Assembly (NCBI RefSeq): GCF_017833035.1
Contig: NZ_JAFIBM010000001.1
Span: 868,001 to 932,000 of the forward strand
Reading direction: 5' to 3'
Origin: Frigoribacterium sp. PvP032
Lineage (GTDB): Bacteria > Actinomycetota > Actinomycetes > Actinomycetales > Microbacteriaceae
Length of the DNA stretch: 64,000 nucleotides
This document shows positions 9,640 to 55,055 of this stretch, one piece after another; the first letter of the stretch is position 1, and every line of letters begins with the position of its first letter. Made by a program: the position numbers and the translations under genes. Under the pieces are notes generated by a model. That model saw only the letters and a list, made by a program, of their open reading frames with translations, made no database searches and was not told the DNA's origin.

Positions 9640-10341
9640 CTACTCGGTGGCGACGGTGATCTTCGCGACGCCGACGAGCATCTCGTCCTGGACGGCGTCG
9701 GTGTTGAAGGTCTGGTTCAGCAGGGCTGCGGCGTCGGGGCTGATGTGGACGGTGGTGCCCTCGAGGACGGCGTTGGTGCCTTCCATCTGGAGGGGCTTCA
9801 GGGTGCCGCCGTAGAGGTTGAAGAGGTAGGCGTCTTCTGCTGCGACGGTGCCGTTGGCGGTGACGGTGCCGTAGAGCTTGCTCTCGCCCGGGTCGATGCG
9901 GAAGTCGGTGAGCTCGACGACGGTGCCGTCGGCAGCGGTCAGCGACAGGCCGGAGCCGTCGTGGTCGATCTCGCCCTGGACGTAGGGGCGGACGTCGCTG
10001 GCGGGGTCGTAGTAGTCGACGTTGCCGCCGGTGATGGGGAAGGAGAAGGTGCCGTCGGTGAAGCCGGCGGTGCCGACGACTCCGGGGGTGAGGCCGAGGG
10101 TGCCTAGGGCGTCGACGAAGGACGCGTCGACGGCGACCTGGGTGTCGACTCCCTTGCTGAGGTCGGGGAGCGAGGCCAGGGGCTCGGTGGACGCGGCCGA
10201 CGAGGAGGACGACGGGGCGGCGGACGACGACGAGGTCGAGCCGGCGTCGCTGGAGGAGCACGCGGCGAGGCTGAAGATGAGGGCGCCGGAGGCGACGATG
10301 CCGAAGGCGGACTTGGTGATGGTCTTGCGTGAGATGTTCAC
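9640..10341 (-). CDS. secreted lipoprotein of unknown function
   Basis: A 233-residue protein with signal peptide and lipobox (SLAACSS), then a Ser/Ala-rich tether of about 25 residues, then a globular domain. The domain contains TFSFPITGGNVDYYDP, GEIDHDGSGLSLTAADGT, VELTDFRIDPG and a strand pattern typical of an all-beta exported domain. The GxIxHxGxGL pattern recalls exported proteins with anchor domains and is loosely like heme-binding HtaA domains, but I would not assign either. The start is a GTG with a good AAGGAG ribosome site 6 bases upstream. It stands alone between two hairpin regions, so it is probably monocistronic. Confidence 0.75.
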   Translation of the reverse strand: MNISRKTITKSAFGIVASGALIFSLAACSSSDAGSTSSSSAAPSSSSSAASTEPLASLPDLSKGVDTQVAVDASFVDALGTLGLTPGVVGTAGFTDGTFSFPITGGNVDYYDPASDVRPYVQGEIDHDGSGLSLTAADGTVVELTDFRIDPGESKLYGTVTANGTVAAEDAYLFNLYGGTLKPLQMEGTNAVLEGTTVHISPDAAALLNQTFNTDAVQDEMLVGVAKITVATE

Positions 10342-10554
10342 GATGGTTCTCCTTGTCTGTGGTTCCCGGTGGGGAGTTGACAGGGGTTCGCCACGGTCGC
10401 TGGATGGGTTTGGTGCGTTACCTGACTGTTACCTCGAGCTGACCAGCCAGTGCCGAGGAGGCGGTGGGCAGGTCCCGGGGACCGGGCCACCGCCTCCTCG
10501 GCTCGCGGGGGTCGGGGTTCACGACCTCGGGGTTCAGGAACCGGGCGTGCGCGA

Positions 10555-10630
10555 GTCCTGAGTCGTGCACAGATCAGGACAGATGGGTCCTGAGTTGCGC
10601 GACTCAGGACCCATGTTCCTGAATGAGGAG
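10555..10630. repeat. nested palindrome element, family B copy 2
   Basis: TCCTGAGTCGTGCACAGATCAGGA and TCCTGAGTTGCGCGACTCAGGA are consecutive stems ending in TTCCTGAATGAGGAG. It lies in the 10342-10653 gap between two minus-strand genes; apart from the ribosome site of the lipoprotein gene nothing else is visible there. Confidence 0.8.
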
Positions 10631-10653
10631 AGCGCGAACAGGGCGCGGGCGGG

Positions 10654-12816
10654 TTAGCGGAGGTCGAGCCAGGCGACCTGCTCGTCCGACAGGGAGACGC
10701 TGAGGCCGCGCATCGACGACCGCGCCTCCGAGATGGTGCGCGGCCCGAACAGCGGGAACGTCGGGAACGGCTGGTGCAGCACGAACGCCAGCGCGATCGC
10801 CGTCGCGGCGACCCCGTGCTCGGCTCCCAGCTGCTCCGCACGGCGCAGACGCTCGAAGTTGTCGTCGCTGTAGTAGCAACGCACGAGTTCGGCGTCGGTG
10901 AGGTCGTCAGGTCGGGCCCGGCCCGTGAAGAAGCCGCGGGCCTGTGACGACCAGGGCAGCAGCGGGATCTGGCGCTGCTCGAGCCACTTCTTCGACTCGG
11001 GGTCGGTCACGTGCTCGCACCCGGCCCACGGCACGTCGTAGGCCTCGGCCAGCCCGAAGTGGTTCGACAGCACCGAGAACTCGGCCCGGCCGTTGGCGCG
11101 GGCGTACTCGTTCGCCTCGTCGACGCGGGCGGGGGTCCAGTTCGAGCCGCCGTAGACGCGGATGCGTCCGGCCCGGCGGTGCTCGTCGAGCACGTCGACG
11201 AACTCGCCCACGGGCACGTCGGTGTTGTCCCTGTGCATCATGTAGATGTCGGCGTGGTCGGTGCCCTGGCGGTCGAGGCTCTCGAGCAGCTGGCGGGTCA
11301 GCGACTCGGGGTCGCAGTGCGGCGTGTGCGCGCCCTTGGTGATGACGACGACGTCGTCGCGGATGCCGCGGTTGGCGATCCACCGGCCGAGCCGCGCCTC
11401 CATCTCGCCGTCGCCGTACAGCCAGCCGGTGTCGAACGTGTTGCCGCCCTGGCTGACGAAGTGGTCGAAGATCGAGGAGGCGTGCGCCAGGTCCTGCTGG
11501 TTGTCGACTCCCATCACCAGTCGCGACACCTTCTTGCCGACCCCGGCGATCTCGCCGTAGACCATGGGGGCGTCGGGGGAGACGGCGAGCGGGCGGCCGG
11601 TGACGGTGGGGATGTCGACGTCCTCGCGCTCGAACGGGTAGCGCAGGTCGATCGCGGCACGCCACTGGTCGAGCACGCGGGCGGTGCCGACGCTGTCGTC
11701 GAGGCTGATCTCTGGGGCCTCGCCGGTGCCGTCGCGCAGGGCGGCGATCGTCGCGGCGGCCTCGAGCCCGTACGGCTGTGCCCCAGGGAACGACAGGGTG
11801 CGGGTCTCGCCGTCGACCGTGCGGACGGTCAGCTGCGCGTCGTCGCCGAACCACGGGTCGGTGAGCAGGATGCTGCCGCGCGAACCGGTGATGGTGGCCG
11901 AGTTGGCGTCGTCGACGCGCACGCCGCAGCGGACGGCGGCGGTCACGCCGTCGCCGAAGTCGAGCTGGGCCAGGGTCCACTCGTCGACGCCCGTCGGGCC
12001 GAGCGTGCCCTTGGCCGTCACGGCGAGGGGCTCGGCGAACGCACGACCGCGTGCCGCCCCGACGACGGCCCGGGCCAGCGAGACGGGGTAGCCGCCCACG
12101 TCGAGGATCCCTCCGCCGGCCGTGTCGACGTCGAACAGGCGGCCCTCACGGGTGGCTGCGGCGAACGAGAAGGCGGCGTCGACGTGCACGAGCTCGCCGA
12201 TCGCGCCGTCGCGGACGAGCTCGAGCAGCGCCCGCGTCTGCGGGTGGAACCGGTACATGACGGCCTCGACGAGCGTCGCGCCCGCCTGGCGTGCCTCGTC
12301 GGCCACCGCCATGGTCGTGCCGGCGTTCGGCGTCAGCGGCTTCTCGCAGAGCACGGCCTTGCCGGCCGCGACGGCGTCGAGCACGAGGCGCGCGTGGGTC
12401 GTGTGCACGGTCGCGACGTAGACGGCGTCGATCGTGGGGTCGGCGAGGATCTCGGCGTAGGTCCCGGTGCGGACGGTCGCGCCCGCGGCGGCGGCGCCGG
12501 TGCCGGCGGCGGTGCCGGTGCTGGCGTCGTCGGTGCCCGTCGTGCCCCCGGCGGGCGCTGCGCCCTGCTCGACGGCGAAGGCGGCGAGCTCGGCGGCCCG
12601 CCCCGCGTCCGTGCTGCCCACGGCGGCGAGCACCCCGCCCGACGACGGCAGCTGCGAGACGAACTTCCGGGCGATGGAGCCGGCGCCGAGCACGGCCCAG
12701 CGGGCGGCCGCGCCGGGCTCGGCCAGACGGTCGGACACCGAGGACGCAGGTGCCGAGGAGGTGCCAGGTGTCGAGGAGGCGGCGGTCGCGTCGGCGGGAG
12801 TGGTCAGGGGAGACAT
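10654..12816 (-). CDS. Gfo/Idh/MocA oxidoreductase fused to aldo/keto reductase
   Basis: A 720-residue two-domain enzyme. Residues about 38-400 are a Gfo/Idh/MocA dehydrogenase: WAVLGAGSIARKF is the NAD(P)-binding loop, CEKPLTPN is the EKP motif, and DVGGYPVSLAR follows. Residues about 405-720 are an aldo/keto reductase: FDTGWLYGDGE holds the catalytic Asp/Tyr, VVITKGAH the Lys, and IYMMHRDN the His. Both act on sugars or polyols with nicotinamide cofactors, so the fusion may run two redox steps in one pathway. An Ala/Gly/Thr insertion of about 30 residues lies near residues 90-120. The gene is divergent from a LacI gene, with a perfect operator between them. Confidence 0.88.
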   Translation of the reverse strand: MSPLTTPADATAASSTPGTSSAPASSVSDRLAEPGAAARWAVLGAGSIARKFVSQLPSSGGVLAAVGSTDAGRAAELAAFAVEQGAAPAGGTTGTDDASTGTAAGTGAAAAGATVRTGTYAEILADPTIDAVYVATVHTTHARLVLDAVAAGKAVLCEKPLTPNAGTTMAVADEARQAGATLVEAVMYRFHPQTRALLELVRDGAIGELVHVDAAFSFAAATREGRLFDVDTAGGGILDVGGYPVSLARAVVGAARGRAFAEPLAVTAKGTLGPTGVDEWTLAQLDFGDGVTAAVRCGVRVDDANSATITGSRGSILLTDPWFGDDAQLTVRTVDGETRTLSFPGAQPYGLEAAATIAALRDGTGEAPEISLDDSVGTARVLDQWRAAIDLRYPFEREDVDIPTVTGRPLAVSPDAPMVYGEIAGVGKKVSRLVMGVDNQQDLAHASSIFDHFVSQGGNTFDTGWLYGDGEMEARLGRWIANRGIRDDVVVITKGAHTPHCDPESLTRQLLESLDRQGTDHADIYMMHRDNTDVPVGEFVDVLDEHRRAGRIRVYGGSNWTPARVDEANEYARANGRAEFSVLSNHFGLAEAYDVPWAGCEHVTDPESKKWLEQRQIPLLPWSSQARGFFTGRARPDDLTDAELVRCYYSDDNFERLRRAEQLGAEHGVAATAIALAFVLHQPFPTFPLFGPRTISEARSSMRGLSVSLSDEQVAWLDLR

Positions 12817-29992: not shown

Positions 29993-30085
29993 CCGGCCGG
30001 TCGGTCGATCGGCTGGTCGGTAGGTCGGCCCGAGGTCGGCCCGGCCGGCTGACCGGTCGGCCCGGCCGGCTGACCGGTCGGCTGG
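29993..30085. repeat. GGCCGGTCGG-rich tandem repeats
   Basis: Two exact 21-bp units (30040-30060 and 30061-30081), with degenerate CGGTCGG copies before them, fill most of the gap between the ice-binding gene and the MarR gene. Confidence 0.75.
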
Positions 30086-30184
30086 TCGCGCCGCGGTCGT
30101 GGCCGAGCCGCACCTGTGCTTGCATGGGCGCCTGCGGATGTCGACTCCCGACCCGGATGCTCGCGGACCGATCGAGAGGCCCTG

Positions 30185-30724
30185 ATGAGCGACGAGACGA
30201 CCGTGACCTCCGACGCTGACGAGGGGGCGCCTCCTCCAGTCGGGCACGAGGTGCGGACCGAGGGCGACAGCGGCGTCCTCGCCGCCATCTACGCCATGCA
30301 GGACGCCGAGGCGCTCTTCCGCGCCAGGCTCCGCAAGAAGCTGGGGATCGGCGCGAGCGAGCTCGCCGCCGTCCAGTTCCTGGCGCGGCTCGAGCTGCGC
30401 GGTGCCGACGCCCGGCCCGTCGACGTGGCCGCCCACCTCGGGATCTCGACGAGTGCGATCTCGCCGGTGGTCGTCCGGCTCGAGGGGCGCGGCTACGTCA
30501 TCCGGCGGCCCGACCCGGCCGACGGCCGCGGGATCCGGCTCGCGCTGACCCCGGCGGTGCACGCCGCCGTGTTGGCGGCTGCCGGCGGCGGCAGCCTCGG
30601 GGCCCTGACGGCGGTCGCCGGCCTGGGCGACGTCGAGTCACGCCGGCTCGTCGCCTTGCTGGCGGGGGTCACGTCGGGCTACGCCGGAGGGGCCGCGCCC
30701 GACGTGCTGCTGCCTGCGAGCTGA
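30185..30724 (+). CDS. MarR family transcriptional regulator
   Basis: A 179-residue winged-helix protein. The recognition region is DVAAHLGISTSAISPVVVRL, followed by the wing RGYVIRRPDPADGRGIRLALTP, both typical of MarR. An acidic N-terminal extension of about 25 residues is unusual. It is flanked by repeats, with no obvious partner gene, so the target is unknown. Confidence 0.85.
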   Translation: MSDETTVTSDADEGAPPPVGHEVRTEGDSGVLAAIYAMQDAEALFRARLRKKLGIGASELAAVQFLARLELRGADARPVDVAAHLGISTSAISPVVVRLEGRGYVIRRPDPADGRGIRLALTPAVHAAVLAAAGGGSLGALTAVAGLGDVESRRLVALLAGVTSGYAGGAAPDVLLPAS

Positions 30725-32592: not shown

Positions 32593-33024
32593 TCAGGCGC
32601 CCGCGGGCACCGGCGCGCGGAACCAGTCGAGCAGCGCGCGCACCGCAGGGTCGAGGTCGGGCCGGCGACGTGAGCCGTCGAGAGCAGCGCCGGTGACGTC
32701 CGCGTAGCCCGGGATCGCCCCGGCGAGCTCGTCGGTCGTGGGGCGGTAGCCCATCGACCAGTCGCCGAAGCGGGGCTCGTCGATCGACTCGCGCAGCAGC
32801 TCGACCACGTCGGTGTGCCGCGGATCGGCGGCGATGAGCTCGTAGCGGGCCTGCACGACGTCGTCGGGCCCCTCGAGCACCTGGACGAAGCGCCCCTGCT
32901 TGTGCATCAGGAATCCCGACAGCCCGAGCCGGCGGTTGTTCGCGCGGCTGTTCATGAGCAGGGTGGCGAGGTCGCCGTCGGTGTAGGGGACGCGCGAGGC
33001 GCTGGTGTAGACGATCGAGAGCAT
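32593..33024 (-). CDS. BLUF-domain blue-light photoreceptor
   Basis: A 143-residue flavin-binding light sensor. The flavin-contact residues of the family are all present: Y6 (SIVYTSAS), N30 (RANNRRLGLSG), Q48 (RFVQVLEGPDD), and the W89/M91 pair in GDWSMGYR. The rest of the protein is a short C-terminal extension with no output domain. It is a stand-alone BLUF protein, which normally works by protein-protein contact. The partner is unknown; a photolyase is encoded 19 kb away. Confidence 0.9.
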   Translation of the reverse strand: MLSIVYTSASRVPYTDGDLATLLMNSRANNRRLGLSGFLMHKQGRFVQVLEGPDDVVQARYELIAADPRHTDVVELLRESIDEPRFGDWSMGYRPTTDELAGAIPGYADVTGAALDGSRRRPDLDPAVRALLDWFRAPVPAGA

Positions 33025-38108: not shown

Positions 38109-38768
38109 TCAGGCGGCGGCGCGGCGCGACCGGCGGTCGGCCTCGAGGCCGTCCAGGAGGCGGGTGTCCAGCGAGTGGGCCAGCGCGACCTCGGCGACCA
38201 CCGCCTCCTTGTCGGCGTCGGTCCACGGGGCAGCGTCGAGCTGTTCGTGGTAGGTGGCGCGGAACAGCGCAGGGTCCGCGACCTCGGCGAAGACGTAGAA
38301 GCCGACCCCGTTGACGTCGAAGCCGTAGTGCTTCTGCAGCAGCGTGCTGATGAAGCGACCGCACGACAGGTCGCCGAGGTAGCGCGTGTAGTGGTGGGCG
38401 ACGAACGCCCCGGCCGAGGTCGCGGCGACGGTCTCGAGCCTCTCGACGTACTCGCGAGTGGCCGGCAGAGCGACGACACGGTCGCTCCAGGCGTCGCCGA
38501 GAAGGAACTCGAGGTCCGACTCGAGAGCAGGCAGCCGGCTCATGCCGGTCGTCACGAACGGTGCGGCGACCGGGTGTCCGGCCATGGACGAGGAGGCGCC
38601 CTCGAGCGCGCGGTACACGAACCAGTACTGCGCCACCAGCTGGGCGTAGTCGTCGACGCCGCAGGTGCCGCGCAGCAGGTCGGTCATGAAGTCGGCGCCG
38701 CCGCTGGTGCCGTGACGACTGGTCGTCCGGGCCCGCAGGAACTCCGAGAAGGGGACGACGTCGGTCAC
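38109..38768 (-). CDS. hmuO: biliverdin-producing heme oxygenase
   Basis: A 219-residue enzyme that opens heme to biliverdin, CO and iron. Residue H19 (TTSRHGTSG) is the likely proximal ligand. The distal helix appears as YLGDLSCGRFIS, a close match to the LGDLSGGQ motif, in which the second Gly is replaced by Cys. Start is GTG at 38768 with a GCGGAG site. An iron-box-like inverted repeat lies about 80 bases upstream, so induction under iron starvation is likely. The product frees iron from host or environmental heme. Confidence 0.85.
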   Translation of the reverse strand: MTDVVPFSEFLRARTTSRHGTSGGADFMTDLLRGTCGVDDYAQLVAQYWFVYRALEGASSSMAGHPVAAPFVTTGMSRLPALESDLEFLLGDAWSDRVVALPATREYVERLETVAATSAGAFVAHHYTRYLGDLSCGRFISTLLQKHYGFDVNGVGFYVFAEVADPALFRATYHEQLDAAPWTDADKEAVVAEVALAHSLDTRLLDGLEADRRSRRAAA

Positions 38769-40210: not shown

Positions 40211-40360
40211 CTAGAAGAGGCCCAGTGCCGTGAACACGCCCGCCGTGGCCGTCGCGGTCGCGGCGAGGGCGGAGCCGACGATCACGAGGAGGGTCACCCG
40301 GCGCTCCCGGTCGCCGACGGACCGGGCGGAGGAGGCACGATGTGGTTCGGGGTACGTCAC
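40211..40360 (-). CDS. 49-residue single-pass membrane peptide (paralogue of 43335)
   Basis: A GTG at 40360 has GGAGG 6-7 bases upstream and the frame closes with TAG at 40211-40213. The N-terminal half is polar. Residues about 22-49 form one membrane segment (TLLVIVGSALAATATATAGV). Across residues 17-47, 15 of 31 positions are identical without gaps to the 47-residue peptide at 43335-43478, both around DRxxxTL-V-SALAA-T-AG-A-G. The tight spacing, ribosome site and paralogy support it as a real gene. No known family was recognised. Confidence 0.65.
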   Translation of the reverse strand: MTYPEPHRASSARSVGDRERRVTLLVIVGSALAATATATAGVFTALGLF

Positions 40361-42249: not shown

Positions 42250-42714
42250 CTAGCGCGCCGAGACGGGCGCGGCGGTCTGCTGCGCGGCGATCACCGAGCT
42301 GAGCTCGTCCAGGAACGCGCTGACCGCCTCCGCCTGTTCTGCGGGCACGCCCATCAGGAACTTCCGCACGTGCGGAGCGCTCGTGACCGTGTCGCAGGCG
42401 TCGCGCCCTGACTCGGTGGTCGTGACGATCTTGCGTCGGCCGTCGGCAGGGTCGGGGGTACAGGTGATCAGCCCCGCGTCCTGGAGGCGGTGCAGCAGGT
42501 TCGAGACCGCAGGAGTCGAGAAGCCGAGGGTCGCAGCGAGCGTGCTCGGCGTCATCGGCTCGTCGGTCTGCTCGGCGGCCAGCACGAGTGCGAGCGCGTC
42601 ACGCTCGGTCCTCGGCAGCGTTCCCGCCGAGCTGCGTCGATCGAGTCGCTGCTCGGTGATGCGCCACGCCTCGAGCGCGGCGTGCAGCTTGGCTGCCTGG
42701 ATCTTCTGGGGCAT
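42250..42714 (-). CDS. MarR family transcriptional regulator
   Basis: A 154-residue regulator. The HTH reads TPSTLAATLGFSTPAVSNLLHRL and the wing GLITCTPDPADGRRKIVTTT. A dimer helix follows (GVPAEQAEAVSAFLDELSSVI). It starts MPQKIQAAK. It lies downstream of, and in the same direction as, the four-gene small-peptide operon, 107 bases after it, so it is a likely regulator of that operon (inference). Confidence 0.85.
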   Translation of the reverse strand: MPQKIQAAKLHAALEAWRITEQRLDRRSSAGTLPRTERDALALVLAAEQTDEPMTPSTLAATLGFSTPAVSNLLHRLQDAGLITCTPDPADGRRKIVTTTESGRDACDTVTSAPHVRKFLMGVPAEQAEAVSAFLDELSSVIAAQQTAAPVSAR

Positions 42715-42821: not shown

Positions 42822-42911
42822 TCAGTCGAGGTCGTCGTCGTCGATCGAGGTGTCGAAGTAGGCGACGTGGTCGACCGGCGCAGCGTCGAGGAGGCGGTCG
42901 GCGAAGCTCAC
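42822..42911 (-). CDS. 29-residue acidic peptide, tiny-gene operon 4
   Basis: GTG at 42911 overlaps the stop of the preceding gene by 4 bases (GTGA). It encodes VSFADRLLDAAPVDHVAY then an acidic tail with four consecutive Asp. It closes a chain of four genes that each overlap by 4 bases. Its size and coupling mark it as a possible peptide product or regulatory ORF. Unknown function. Confidence 0.55.
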   Translation of the reverse strand: MSFADRLLDAAPVDHVAYFDTSIDDDDLD

Positions 42912-43228
42912 GACGCCACCGCCATCTCGCGGTCGCCGCGGGCCGACACGGACTCGGGCTCGACGAAGAAGCTGCCGTAGGTGACCTCGACCGGCCGGGC
43001 CGCGTCGACGGACCTCGTGGTGCTCTCGATCGACTCGGCCATCGACGACACGACGTCGCGCACGCGGCGGCGACGCGGGTACGTCTCGATGCGGGCCGCG
43101 GGCACGGAGCGCTCGCGGACGTAGAAGCTGTCGAGCTCGGCAGCCGTGGGCCGCACGGCACCGCCGACGCGGCCGCTGATCGCGGCGACGAGGCCCTCGT
43201 GCGTGAGGCGACGCAGATCGGTGCTCAT
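42908..43228 (-). CDS. 106-residue protein, tiny-gene operon 3
   Basis: The largest member of the operon. It starts MSTDLRRLTHEGLVAAISGRVGG, with a basic middle ETYPRRRRVRDVV, an alternating helix (SSMAESIESTTRSV) and a C-terminal VTYGSFFVEPE. No membrane segment, catalytic motif or known domain was recognised. Its ATG overlaps the stop of the 37-residue gene by 4 bases. It may bind the peptides encoded beside it, but that is conjecture. Confidence 0.65.
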   Translation of the reverse strand: MSTDLRRLTHEGLVAAISGRVGGAVRPTAAELDSFYVRERSVPAARIETYPRRRRVRDVVSSMAESIESTTRSVDAARPVEVTYGSFFVEPESVSARGDREMAVAS

Positions 43229-43338
43229 CGGAGCGACTCCGACTCGAAGAGCTCGGCCAGGTCGAGCGGCTGGGTCTCGGCGAGGAGGTGGTGGCCGGCG
43301 TCCGACAGCGGTGCCGTCGCGGAGGTCGAGGCGCTCAT
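43225..43338 (-). CDS. 37-residue peptide, tiny-gene operon 2
   Basis: ATG at 43338 overlaps the 47-residue gene by 4 bases (ATGA), and its TGA overlaps the next ATG. The product starts MSASTSATAPLSDAGHHL and ends LDLAELFESESLR, amphipathic and acidic, without Cys. The layout is leader-like, but no modification site is obvious. Confidence 0.6.
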   Translation of the reverse strand: MSASTSATAPLSDAGHHLLAETQPLDLAELFESESLR

Positions 43339-43478
43339 GCGCCGGCGCCCATCGCGAACAGCATGCCGGCGATGAGGGTGCCGCAGGCGGCGAGTGCCGA
43401 GGTGGCGACGACGAACAGCGTCAGCTGGCGGTCGGCGTCGCGGATCTCGGAGAAGGTGGTGTGCTGCGTGGTGGTCAT
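43335..43478 (-). CDS. 47-residue membrane peptide, tiny-gene operon 1
   Basis: ATG at 43478 opens the operon; an AGGA-type site is close upstream. Polar N terminus MTTTQHTTFSEIRDADRQ, then one hydrophobic helix (TLFVVATSALAACGTLIAGM) and a Gly/Ala tail. It is a paralogue of the peptide at 40211-40360. A palindrome CTAGT-N7-ACTAG lies 116 bases upstream, a possible MarR operator. No family recognised. Confidence 0.65.
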   Translation of the reverse strand: MTTTQHTTFSEIRDADRQLTLFVVATSALAACGTLIAGMLFAMGAGA

Positions 43479-43593
43479 GTCCTGCCCGTTCCTGTCAGCC
43501 CTGCGCTGACCTCGAGGTGCATGTGTTCGTGAGGCCTGTTGCTCTGCCTCGTACCGCCGTGAATCGGTACACACGAATGGTTACACAGACTCG

Positions 43594-43610
43594 CTAGTCG
43601 CTCTAACTAG
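43594..43610. promoter_or_regulatory. possible MarR operator upstream of the tiny-gene operon
   Basis: CTAGT-CGCTCTA-ACTAG is an inverted repeat in an AT-richer patch (43560-43615) upstream of the 47-residue gene on the minus strand. Its spacing is like MarR sites. Confidence 0.5.
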
Positions 43611-43680
43611 ATGGCAGAGAGAGTTCGCAGAACGGACATGGCTCGACGACGAGAGACCGTGACGAGCAGGTGCCGGGGGT

Positions 43681-54452: not shown

Positions 54453-55055
54453 TCACCAGCCGCGGGTGAGGCCCTCGAGTCCGAGGTCGAACGCGACGAC
54501 GACGTCGACCTCCGGCTGGAGCAGCATCTGCAGCTGCAGCCCCATGTACAGCGCGACGACGCTCGTGGAGAGCGCGGCGACGTCCGTGCCCGCGGGCACC
54601 TCGCCCTGGCTGAGGTCGAAGGCCAGCCCCTGGAACACCATCGCGTGGAAGTCGCGGTAGCTGTCGCGGACGAACCGCCCGGAGAGGTCGCCCGCGTCGG
54701 CCGAGCCGATCGAGAGCGTCATGAGGGTGCGCGACAGCCCGCGGTGCACGTTGCTGTGCGCGACGAGTCCGCGGACGAAGCCGAGCGTCGCCCCCCCGGC
54801 CGTCTCGCGGGCGACCTGCTCGAACCGGTCGAGGTTCCAGCGGTCGACGGCGGCGAGCACGAGCCCCTCCCACGCCGGGAAGTGCCGCTCGACGCAGGCG
54901 GGCGACATGCCGGCGCGGCGGGCGACGGCGGAGACGTCGGTCGCGTCCCAGCCGAGCAGGTCGAGCGTCTCGACGGTGGCGGCGACGATGCGCTTCCGGT
55001 CCGCGACGCTGGTCTCGAAGGCGCTGGGTTCGTGGTGCGCGGTGATCGTGCTCAC
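54453..55055 (-). CDS. TetR family transcriptional regulator
   Basis: A 200-residue regulator. ADRKRIVAATVETLDLLGWDATDVSAVARRAGMSPACVERHFPAW is the TetR HTH. The C-terminal ligand domain is helical (VHRGLSRTLMTLSIGS, DVAALSTSVVALYMGLQLQMLLQ). GTG at 55055 follows GAGGAG. Target unknown. Confidence 0.87.
   Translation of the reverse strand: MSTITAHHEPSAFETSVADRKRIVAATVETLDLLGWDATDVSAVARRAGMSPACVERHFPAWEGLVLAAVDRWNLDRFEQVARETAGGATLGFVRGLVAHSNVHRGLSRTLMTLSIGSADAGDLSGRFVRDSYRDFHAMVFQGLAFDLSQGEVPAGTDVAALSTSVVALYMGLQLQMLLQPEVDVVVAFDLGLEGLTRGW

Follow-up and report, generated by a model that had tools for sequence, protein, structure and literature searches.

The window, by which we mean the whole 64-kb stretch of DNA analyzed here, belongs to a Frigoribacterium genome (Microbacteriaceae; 3.33 Mb in a single contig) and carries on its minus strand four very small genes, o1 to o4, with a CNNM/CorC-type gene upstream and a MarR-family gene 107 bases beyond the o4 stop codon (Table 1). 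A first-pass annotation had read these frames, of 47, 37, 106, and 29 codons, as chained by short overlaps and had noted a MarR gene that follows in the same direction. Both observations were confirmed: the coordinates are correct, the o1/o2, o2/o3, and o3/o4 junctions consist on the minus strand of the 4-base overlaps ATGA, ATGA, and GTGA, respectively, and MarR is the last gene of the cluster. The 3 junctions are of the same kind in 4 out of 4 orthologous loci (the window, L008, L009, and L010), and the length differences that o2 and o3 display between these loci are whole codons throughout. Pairwise dN/dS ratios among the 4 loci were 0.09–0.42 for o1, 0.29–0.73 for o2, 0.24–0.42 for o3, and 0.06–0.17 for MarR, and thus mostly below 1; for o4 they were 0.32–1.01, this gene being too short for a firm ratio. 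Because the junctions are kept in all 4 loci, the length changes respect the codons, and o1 profiles match 36 of 398 Microbacteriaceae genomes (13 of 85 genera, E ≤ 0.01), the four overlapping frames are by the criteria of sequence conservation genuine genes and not the product of chance.

Table 1. Features of the 64-kb window considered in this work.
Feature	Coordinates	Strand	Remarks
o1	43335..43478	-	47-aa single-pass membrane peptide
o2	43225..43338	-	37-aa acidic peptide
o3	42908..43228	-	106 aa, fusion of o3N and o3C
o4	42822..42911	-	29-aa acidic peptide
MarR-family regulator	42250..42714	-	PF12802, 9.8e-12; last gene of the cluster
TGTCC-N5-GCGAAC box	43623..43638	-	centre at approximately -60 from the putative start
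MarR-type palindrome CTAGTTAGAGCGACTAG	43594..43610	-	overlaps -35-like TTAGAG; putative binding
-10-like AACCAT	43577..43582	-	putative start site
HP1 hairpin, loop ATTCACGG	43550..43571	-	putative mRNA 5' end
HP2 hairpin GTCAGC-GCAGG-GCTGAC	43494..43510	-	just upstream of the o1 start
o1-like peptide, membrane half only	40211..40360	-	49 aa, after a Ser/Thr kinase gene
Short BLUF blue-light photoreceptor	32593..33024	-	143 aa; PF04940, 3.5e-26
Second MarR, o1-linked type	30074..30724	+	stop-to-stop frame, 85.9 bits; start codon not fixed
TetR regulator	54453..55055	-	clade fused or adjacent to BLUF in other genera; putative role

The products had not been recognized in the first-pass annotation, and we likewise obtained no significant match for o1–o4 in Pfam, NCBIfam, PHROGs, or PADLOC. 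Relatives of o1 produced only non-significant matches to PHROGs and toxin families (SdpC, E 0.21; phrog_11608, E 0.09), and a PDB sequence search with the o3 and o1 profiles returned nothing at E ≤ 0.1. The proteins can be resolved into five modules, o1, o2, o3N, o3C, and o4; the two halves of o3 are each found alone at other loci. The o1 protein, the one membrane peptide that had been called among the products, is characterized by the motif F[ST]E[IV]R...R..TL followed by a hydrophobic segment, and its best conserved part is the segment preceding the membrane helix (FSE[IV]R). Both o2 and o4 are short and acidic and have constant cores; o2 shows the core T[EQ]PLDL..LF, and the C-terminal end of o4 reads YFDT.IDDDDLD. 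The motifs of the o3 halves are L.HE.LV..V (o3N) and Y.RE..VP.RI..YP[KR]RRR ... Y.[DS]FF (o3C), and the full-length protein has a basic stretch, RRRR, and an aromatic end that is conserved. AlphaFold2 modelling of o3 on a shallow alignment of 17 placed helices at residues 10–23 and 56–73, with a mean pLDDT of 66 and a pTM of 0.24, and o3 is predicted to be without a compact fold.

Stretches related to the operon were found by DNA search in all 16 Frigoribacterium genomes. Behind the leaders described below, the modules are arranged as o1-o2-o3-o4, o1-o2-o4, o1-o2, o1-o3N, o2-o3, o3-o4, o1 alone, or o3 alone, an o1-o3C arrangement occurs in Frondihabitans, and one species group has the modules distributed over four loci. 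The expectation that relatives would conserve the four-gene order is therefore borne out at the 4 orthologous loci and fails at other loci, where the combinations change. Expression in fixed stoichiometry from one transcript, which had been read from the tight overlaps, is not the rule, because other species distribute these genes over as many as four loci, and the spread of the modules over several loci makes the module set, rather than the operon, appear to be the unit of selection. In an order-wide sample of 317 genomes, o1 was detected in 4 at E ≤ 0.001, of which 2 were weak and one of the weak ones lay outside the family. At some loci of genera g2, g3, g5, g32, and g55, the gene after o1 encodes a further small protein, WxxAD, and a MarR gene lies close by in several cases. 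The window also encodes a peptide that resembles only the membrane half of o1 (Table 1), and a similar match lies approximately 3 kb from an o1 locus in G003, G012, and G013.

The operon and its relatives are preceded by a leader in which a TGTCC-N5-GCGAAC box, a CTAG palindrome, a -10-like element, the HP1 hairpin (sometimes followed by a second HP1), the HP2 hairpin, and the start codon succeed one another. The CTAGT-N7-ACTAG palindrome that had been noticed before o1 does belong to the system: it is the sequence CTAGTTAGAGCGACTAG placed over the -35-like element, which is the sole exact match to the relaxed palindrome pattern within the window (with up to 2 mismatches, 2 matches against 0.31 expected). 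The A at the second position and the T at the last position of the -10-like element are invariant in 24 aligned leaders, and if this element works as a normal -10, HP1 would mark the beginning of the transcript. The loop of HP1 is RUUCACGG, with two exceptions among 25 distinct hairpins. In these hairpins 94.9% of the cells pair and 6 of the 7 pairs show changes on both sides, the four inner pairs being partly selected because hairpins were chosen by at least 4 pairs outward from the loop; the three outer pairs, on which this choice did not act, form in 18, 24, and 24 of the 25. The covariation score of HP1 was 0.577 compared with 0.199 after shuffling, a value reached by 0 of 500 shuffles, and versions slid along the alignment scored at most 0.127. 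HP2 gave a similar picture (21 distinct sequences), with 96.8% paired cells, changes on both sides in 4 of 6 pairs, and a score of 0.604 compared with 0.257, again reached by 0 of 500 shuffles. Judged by these compensatory changes in the stems, HP1 and HP2 are a structured RNA leader. This leader resembles the cis-regulatory leaders of Rfam in being a conserved 5' element with covarying stems and near-constant loops, but differs from them in comprising two short hairpins only and in having no relevant match in Rfam 15 (12 loci and the window searched; one chance match to mir-540).

To follow the leader through the genus and family we used a covariance model, R1, built from 24 sequences. It matched all 16 Frigoribacterium genomes, at 54 places in total, with 2 to 5 in each and the training loci included among them; under stricter filters 16 of 299 family genomes were matched, 12 of which are Frigoribacterium and Frondihabitans. 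The weakest of the 54 matches in the genus (E 0.009) was set aside, and the other 53 were analyzed. With loose patterns, the TGTCC-like box was recognized in 51 of these 53 leaders, the TTCACGG loop in 51, the CTAG-like palindrome in 42, and an HP2-like stretch in 42. In a motif test, 52 of the 53 had the start codon of a family gene 20–170 bases downstream, compared with 76 of 4000 random positions, and the remaining leader (L089) is followed by diverged o2 and o3C motifs, as judged by eye. That the operon is one unit of a dispersed regulon with a common promoter type and RNA leader is well supported by these comparisons. The earlier reading of the operon as a small-protein module was thus right, yet it is one of several loci that share a leader, and that reading had overlooked both the RNA leader and the BLUF gene. 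Outside Frigoribacterium, weak or odd leader matches were recorded at L181, L182, L186, and L192. Of 20 extra places that fit the hairpin pattern, 6 (L092, L100, and L103–L106) were discarded as chance matches inside other genes. In G012, an o1-o2-o3-o4-o3N chain (L126, about 9891–10713) has no HP1 loop upstream, which suggests that part of the family is controlled in some way other than through the HP1 leader.

The most recurrent neighbour of the small-protein genes is MarR, found in 13 of 30 contexts in an all-against-all protein comparison of stretches of 4.5–20 kb, and MarR profiles match 24 of 56 partly overlapping contexts. At the window locus the MarR gene in the cluster and the palindrome over the promoter are both present, and the position of the palindrome over the -35-like element fits repression by MarR, which marks it as a putative binding site. 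MarR may not control every locus, because 11 of the 53 leaders do not contain a CTAG palindrome recognizable with the loose pattern, among them the leaders of all 7 analyzed loci of one o2-o3 type; control of these palindrome-less loci by MarR is doubtful. The 11 also include the leader of the G010 locus linked to BLUF, where the palindrome is degenerate. As to the TGTCC-N5-GCGAAC box, its spacing presumably does not fit a ClgR, LexA, or CRP site. Another MarR frame in the window, related to the MarR genes of o1 loci, precedes an AraC gene and is 2 kb away from the BLUF gene (Table 1).

A BLUF protein also emerged from the all-against-all comparison. The BLUF gene of the window is the sole one found in its genome and lies 10.5 kb from the leader. 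Its product displays the features of a short BLUF protein: the domain has the conserved Tyr and Gln, the C-terminal extension is short, and Pfam detected no EAL domain. In an alignment with 2byc, Asn30 and Gln48 fall on identical residues and Tyr6 falls on a Tyr, and we take these three to be photocycle residues. No CTAG box was seen at the BLUF gene. A heme oxygenase gene (38109–38768, minus strand; PF01126, 2.1e-46) is situated between BLUF and the operon, and a heme-oxygenase-like protein is encoded near o1 also in L116 (6530–7175, genus g2). All 16 Frigoribacterium genomes have BLUF, one or two genes each. Where BLUF shares a contig with leaders, the closest leader is at a distance of 0.3 kb in G010, 8.8–14.1 kb in G000, G012, and G013, and 20–71 kb in seven further genomes, and in 5 of the 16 assemblies BLUF is on a different contig from any leader. 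Among the 398 family genomes, 23 of the 36 that have o1 also have BLUF, compared with 75 of the 362 that lack o1 (p 1.6e-7, kinship not corrected). Counted by genus, the proportions are 9 of 13 and 16 of 72 (p 0.0015; o1 at E ≤ 0.01), an association that is weak when o1 is called at E ≤ 1e-4 (4 of 7 and 21 of 78, p 0.11). Of the 16 leader-positive genomes in the stricter family search, 15 have BLUF, and o1 occurs without BLUF in genera g2, g3, and g55. Under random placement, the proximity of BLUF in 15 lineages has a combined p of 7.8e-5, which is a guide only because the representatives were picked after part of the distances had been seen. Altogether, the small-protein loci keep company with BLUF, which suggests by association a link to light, although one that fails in some genera.

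At several loci the linkage is direct. In G010, BLUF, the leader, o1, o2, o3N, o4, and MarR are contiguous on one strand within 1.8 kb, and in Frondihabitans G101, BLUF, TetR, WxxAD, o3C, o2, o1, two HP1 hairpins, and a divergent MarR gene are found within approximately 6 kb. BLUF and TetR share one open frame in G268 and G336, that of G336 being convergent with o1, and adjoin in G305. The shared frame is a candidate for a one-piece blue-light transcription factor; such BLUF-TetR frames are located at L269 (2050–3073) and L115 (9194–9899). The proteins of L131 and L111 (3467–4157), which had clustered with BLUF through the BLUF-TetR frame, were reassigned to TetR. Among the matches listed, TetR profile scores above 150 bits come only from genera g1, g5, g32, and g17. 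A strong TetR match is present in 13 of the 16 Frigoribacterium genomes and missing in 3 that carry leaders, and because of these 3 we leave undecided whether TetR binds the TGTCC-N5-GCGAAC box. In four genera, the WxxAD gene immediately precedes BLUF at a total of 8 out of 44 BLUF loci (L208, L210, L213, L215, L219, L227, L228, and L231), the two frames overlapping by 1 or 4 bases in five loci and being separated by 3–15 bases in three. WxxAD is predicted to fold into five strands followed by a helix at the C terminus (pLDDT 82, pTM 0.68). A fold search of the PDB with this model gave no match at E ≤ 0.001, so the homology of WxxAD between the o1 and BLUF settings rests on sequence profiles.

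The closest parallel is the E. coli pathway in which BluF antagonizes the MerR-like BluR and so releases a four-small-protein operon, of whose products YmgB and to a lesser extent YmgA activate Rcs (PMC3509220). Both systems combine a BLUF protein, a repressor, and an operon of four small proteins, with anti-repression by BLUF being what we propose here. By membership, however, the present system is, on comparison of its components, not the BluF-BluR-YcgZ/YmgABC pathway, because the repressor and the small proteins differ: MarR (perhaps TetR) occupies the place of the MerR-like BluR, a short BLUF that of BLUF-EAL, and o1–o4 are by Pfam unrelated to YcgZ/YmgA/YmgB and have no significant Pfam or NCBIfam match. 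In addition, the genes here form a dispersed regulon with a covarying RNA leader, and the light response is a proposal. A short BLUF protein paired with a transcription regulator is also known from Acinetobacter, where BlsA antagonizes Fur in a temperature-dependent manner; the regulator is another one, the targets are iron-uptake genes, and the abstract mentions no small-protein operon (PMC5955987). Control of a light response by a MarR-type protein, proposed only in our case, has in actinobacteria the precedent of CrtR, the light-dependent carotenoid regulator of Corynebacterium, which differs in targeting crt genes; its authors report no apparent BLUF, LOV, or LitR photosensor in the genomes concerned, and light-dependent pigment is described also in Micrococcales (PMC6739363). 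Our literature search, with most subscription journals outside its coverage, found no account of this small-protein system among the matches listed and none of BLUF with Frigoribacterium.

The genes, the leader and its covariation, the sharing of that leader by scattered loci, and the association with MarR and BLUF are supported by the sequence data, and on this basis we propose a dispersed small-protein regulon that is repressed by MarR, relieved by light through BLUF, and whose products assemble at the membrane. We give this proposal close to an even chance. The repression, light input, RNA binding, assembly, and target, all of which we infer, would operate as follows. MarR would sit on the CTAG palindrome over the -35 element and repress, and a second factor would use the TGTCC-N5-GCGAAC box at approximately -60. 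On sensing blue light, the short BLUF would lift repression by contact with MarR, with the TetR linked to BLUF, or with both. HP1 would form the 5' end of the mRNA, and its UUCACGG loop, which is nearly constant, would be bound by a protein or an RNA to determine how stable the transcript is or how well it is translated; HP2 would tune the ribosome site. At the membrane, o1 would act as the anchor, o3 as a mostly disordered basic linker, and o2 and o4 as acidic docking peptides, and the peptides would probably bind one another as well as a larger partner. In light and cold, the assembly could then adjust a membrane or envelope sensor in the way that YmgA/YmgB act on Rcs. A more specific version, which we put forward tentatively, is that Gram-positive bacteria possess a second pathway from blue light to small proteins that evolved independently. 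In it, BLUF would relieve repression by MarR/TetR across the scattered regulon, the products would be disordered peptides and a membrane anchor, and the mRNAs would open with 5' hairpins of a new class, read by a dedicated RNA-binding factor.

The main competitor is a MarR-controlled small-protein stress module that answers a chemical cue (phenolic, redox, or membrane stress), with BLUF as a mere neighbour. MarR may indeed be the sole sensor: it is the commonest neighbour (13 of 30 contexts), it is encoded close to o1 in genera g3 and g55 (L119, L122, and L123), where no BLUF was found, and BLUF frequently lies at a distance of tens of kb or on a separate contig. We consider this explanation somewhat less likely than the light-linked one in view of the BLUF co-occurrence and proximity statistics, the contiguous BLUF clusters of G010 and G101, and the WxxAD-BLUF pairs. 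The small size of the products, their many paralogues, and the single membrane peptide would also suit signals or antimicrobials that are exported, o1 being the active one; this we consider improbable, as no transporter, maturation, protease, or modification enzyme was detected among the twelve window neighbours scanned, no toxin or phage family gave a significant match, and the conservation of o1 peaks before the membrane helix rather than in a core peptide. Among the sequence comparisons made here, none pointed to a peptide that attacks membranes. Even less probable is a toxin-antitoxin-like arrangement in which o1 depolarizes the membrane and is restrained by o2–o4 or the leader RNA. One membrane peptide and a structured leader would be expected of it, but o3-alone, o2-o3, and o3-o4 loci do without o1, other o1 loci do without partners, and PADLOC had no match for o1–o4. 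Several similar copies per genome and inverted repeats could recall a MITE-like mobile element in which coding is incidental, an idea that is hardly credible given the codon-level conservation, the preserved junctions, the recurrence of the same locus types across many species, and stems that differ by compensated changes.

If the MarR-repressed, light-relieved regulon proposed here is real, a small-protein output under BLUF control would have evolved at least twice from unrelated parts, and the question of why light responses favour tiny proteins would become testable. The loci contribute new peptide families and a leader absent from Rfam, whose near-constant loop calls for a binding partner, and they offer a set of candidate light-responsive promoters in actinobacteria.
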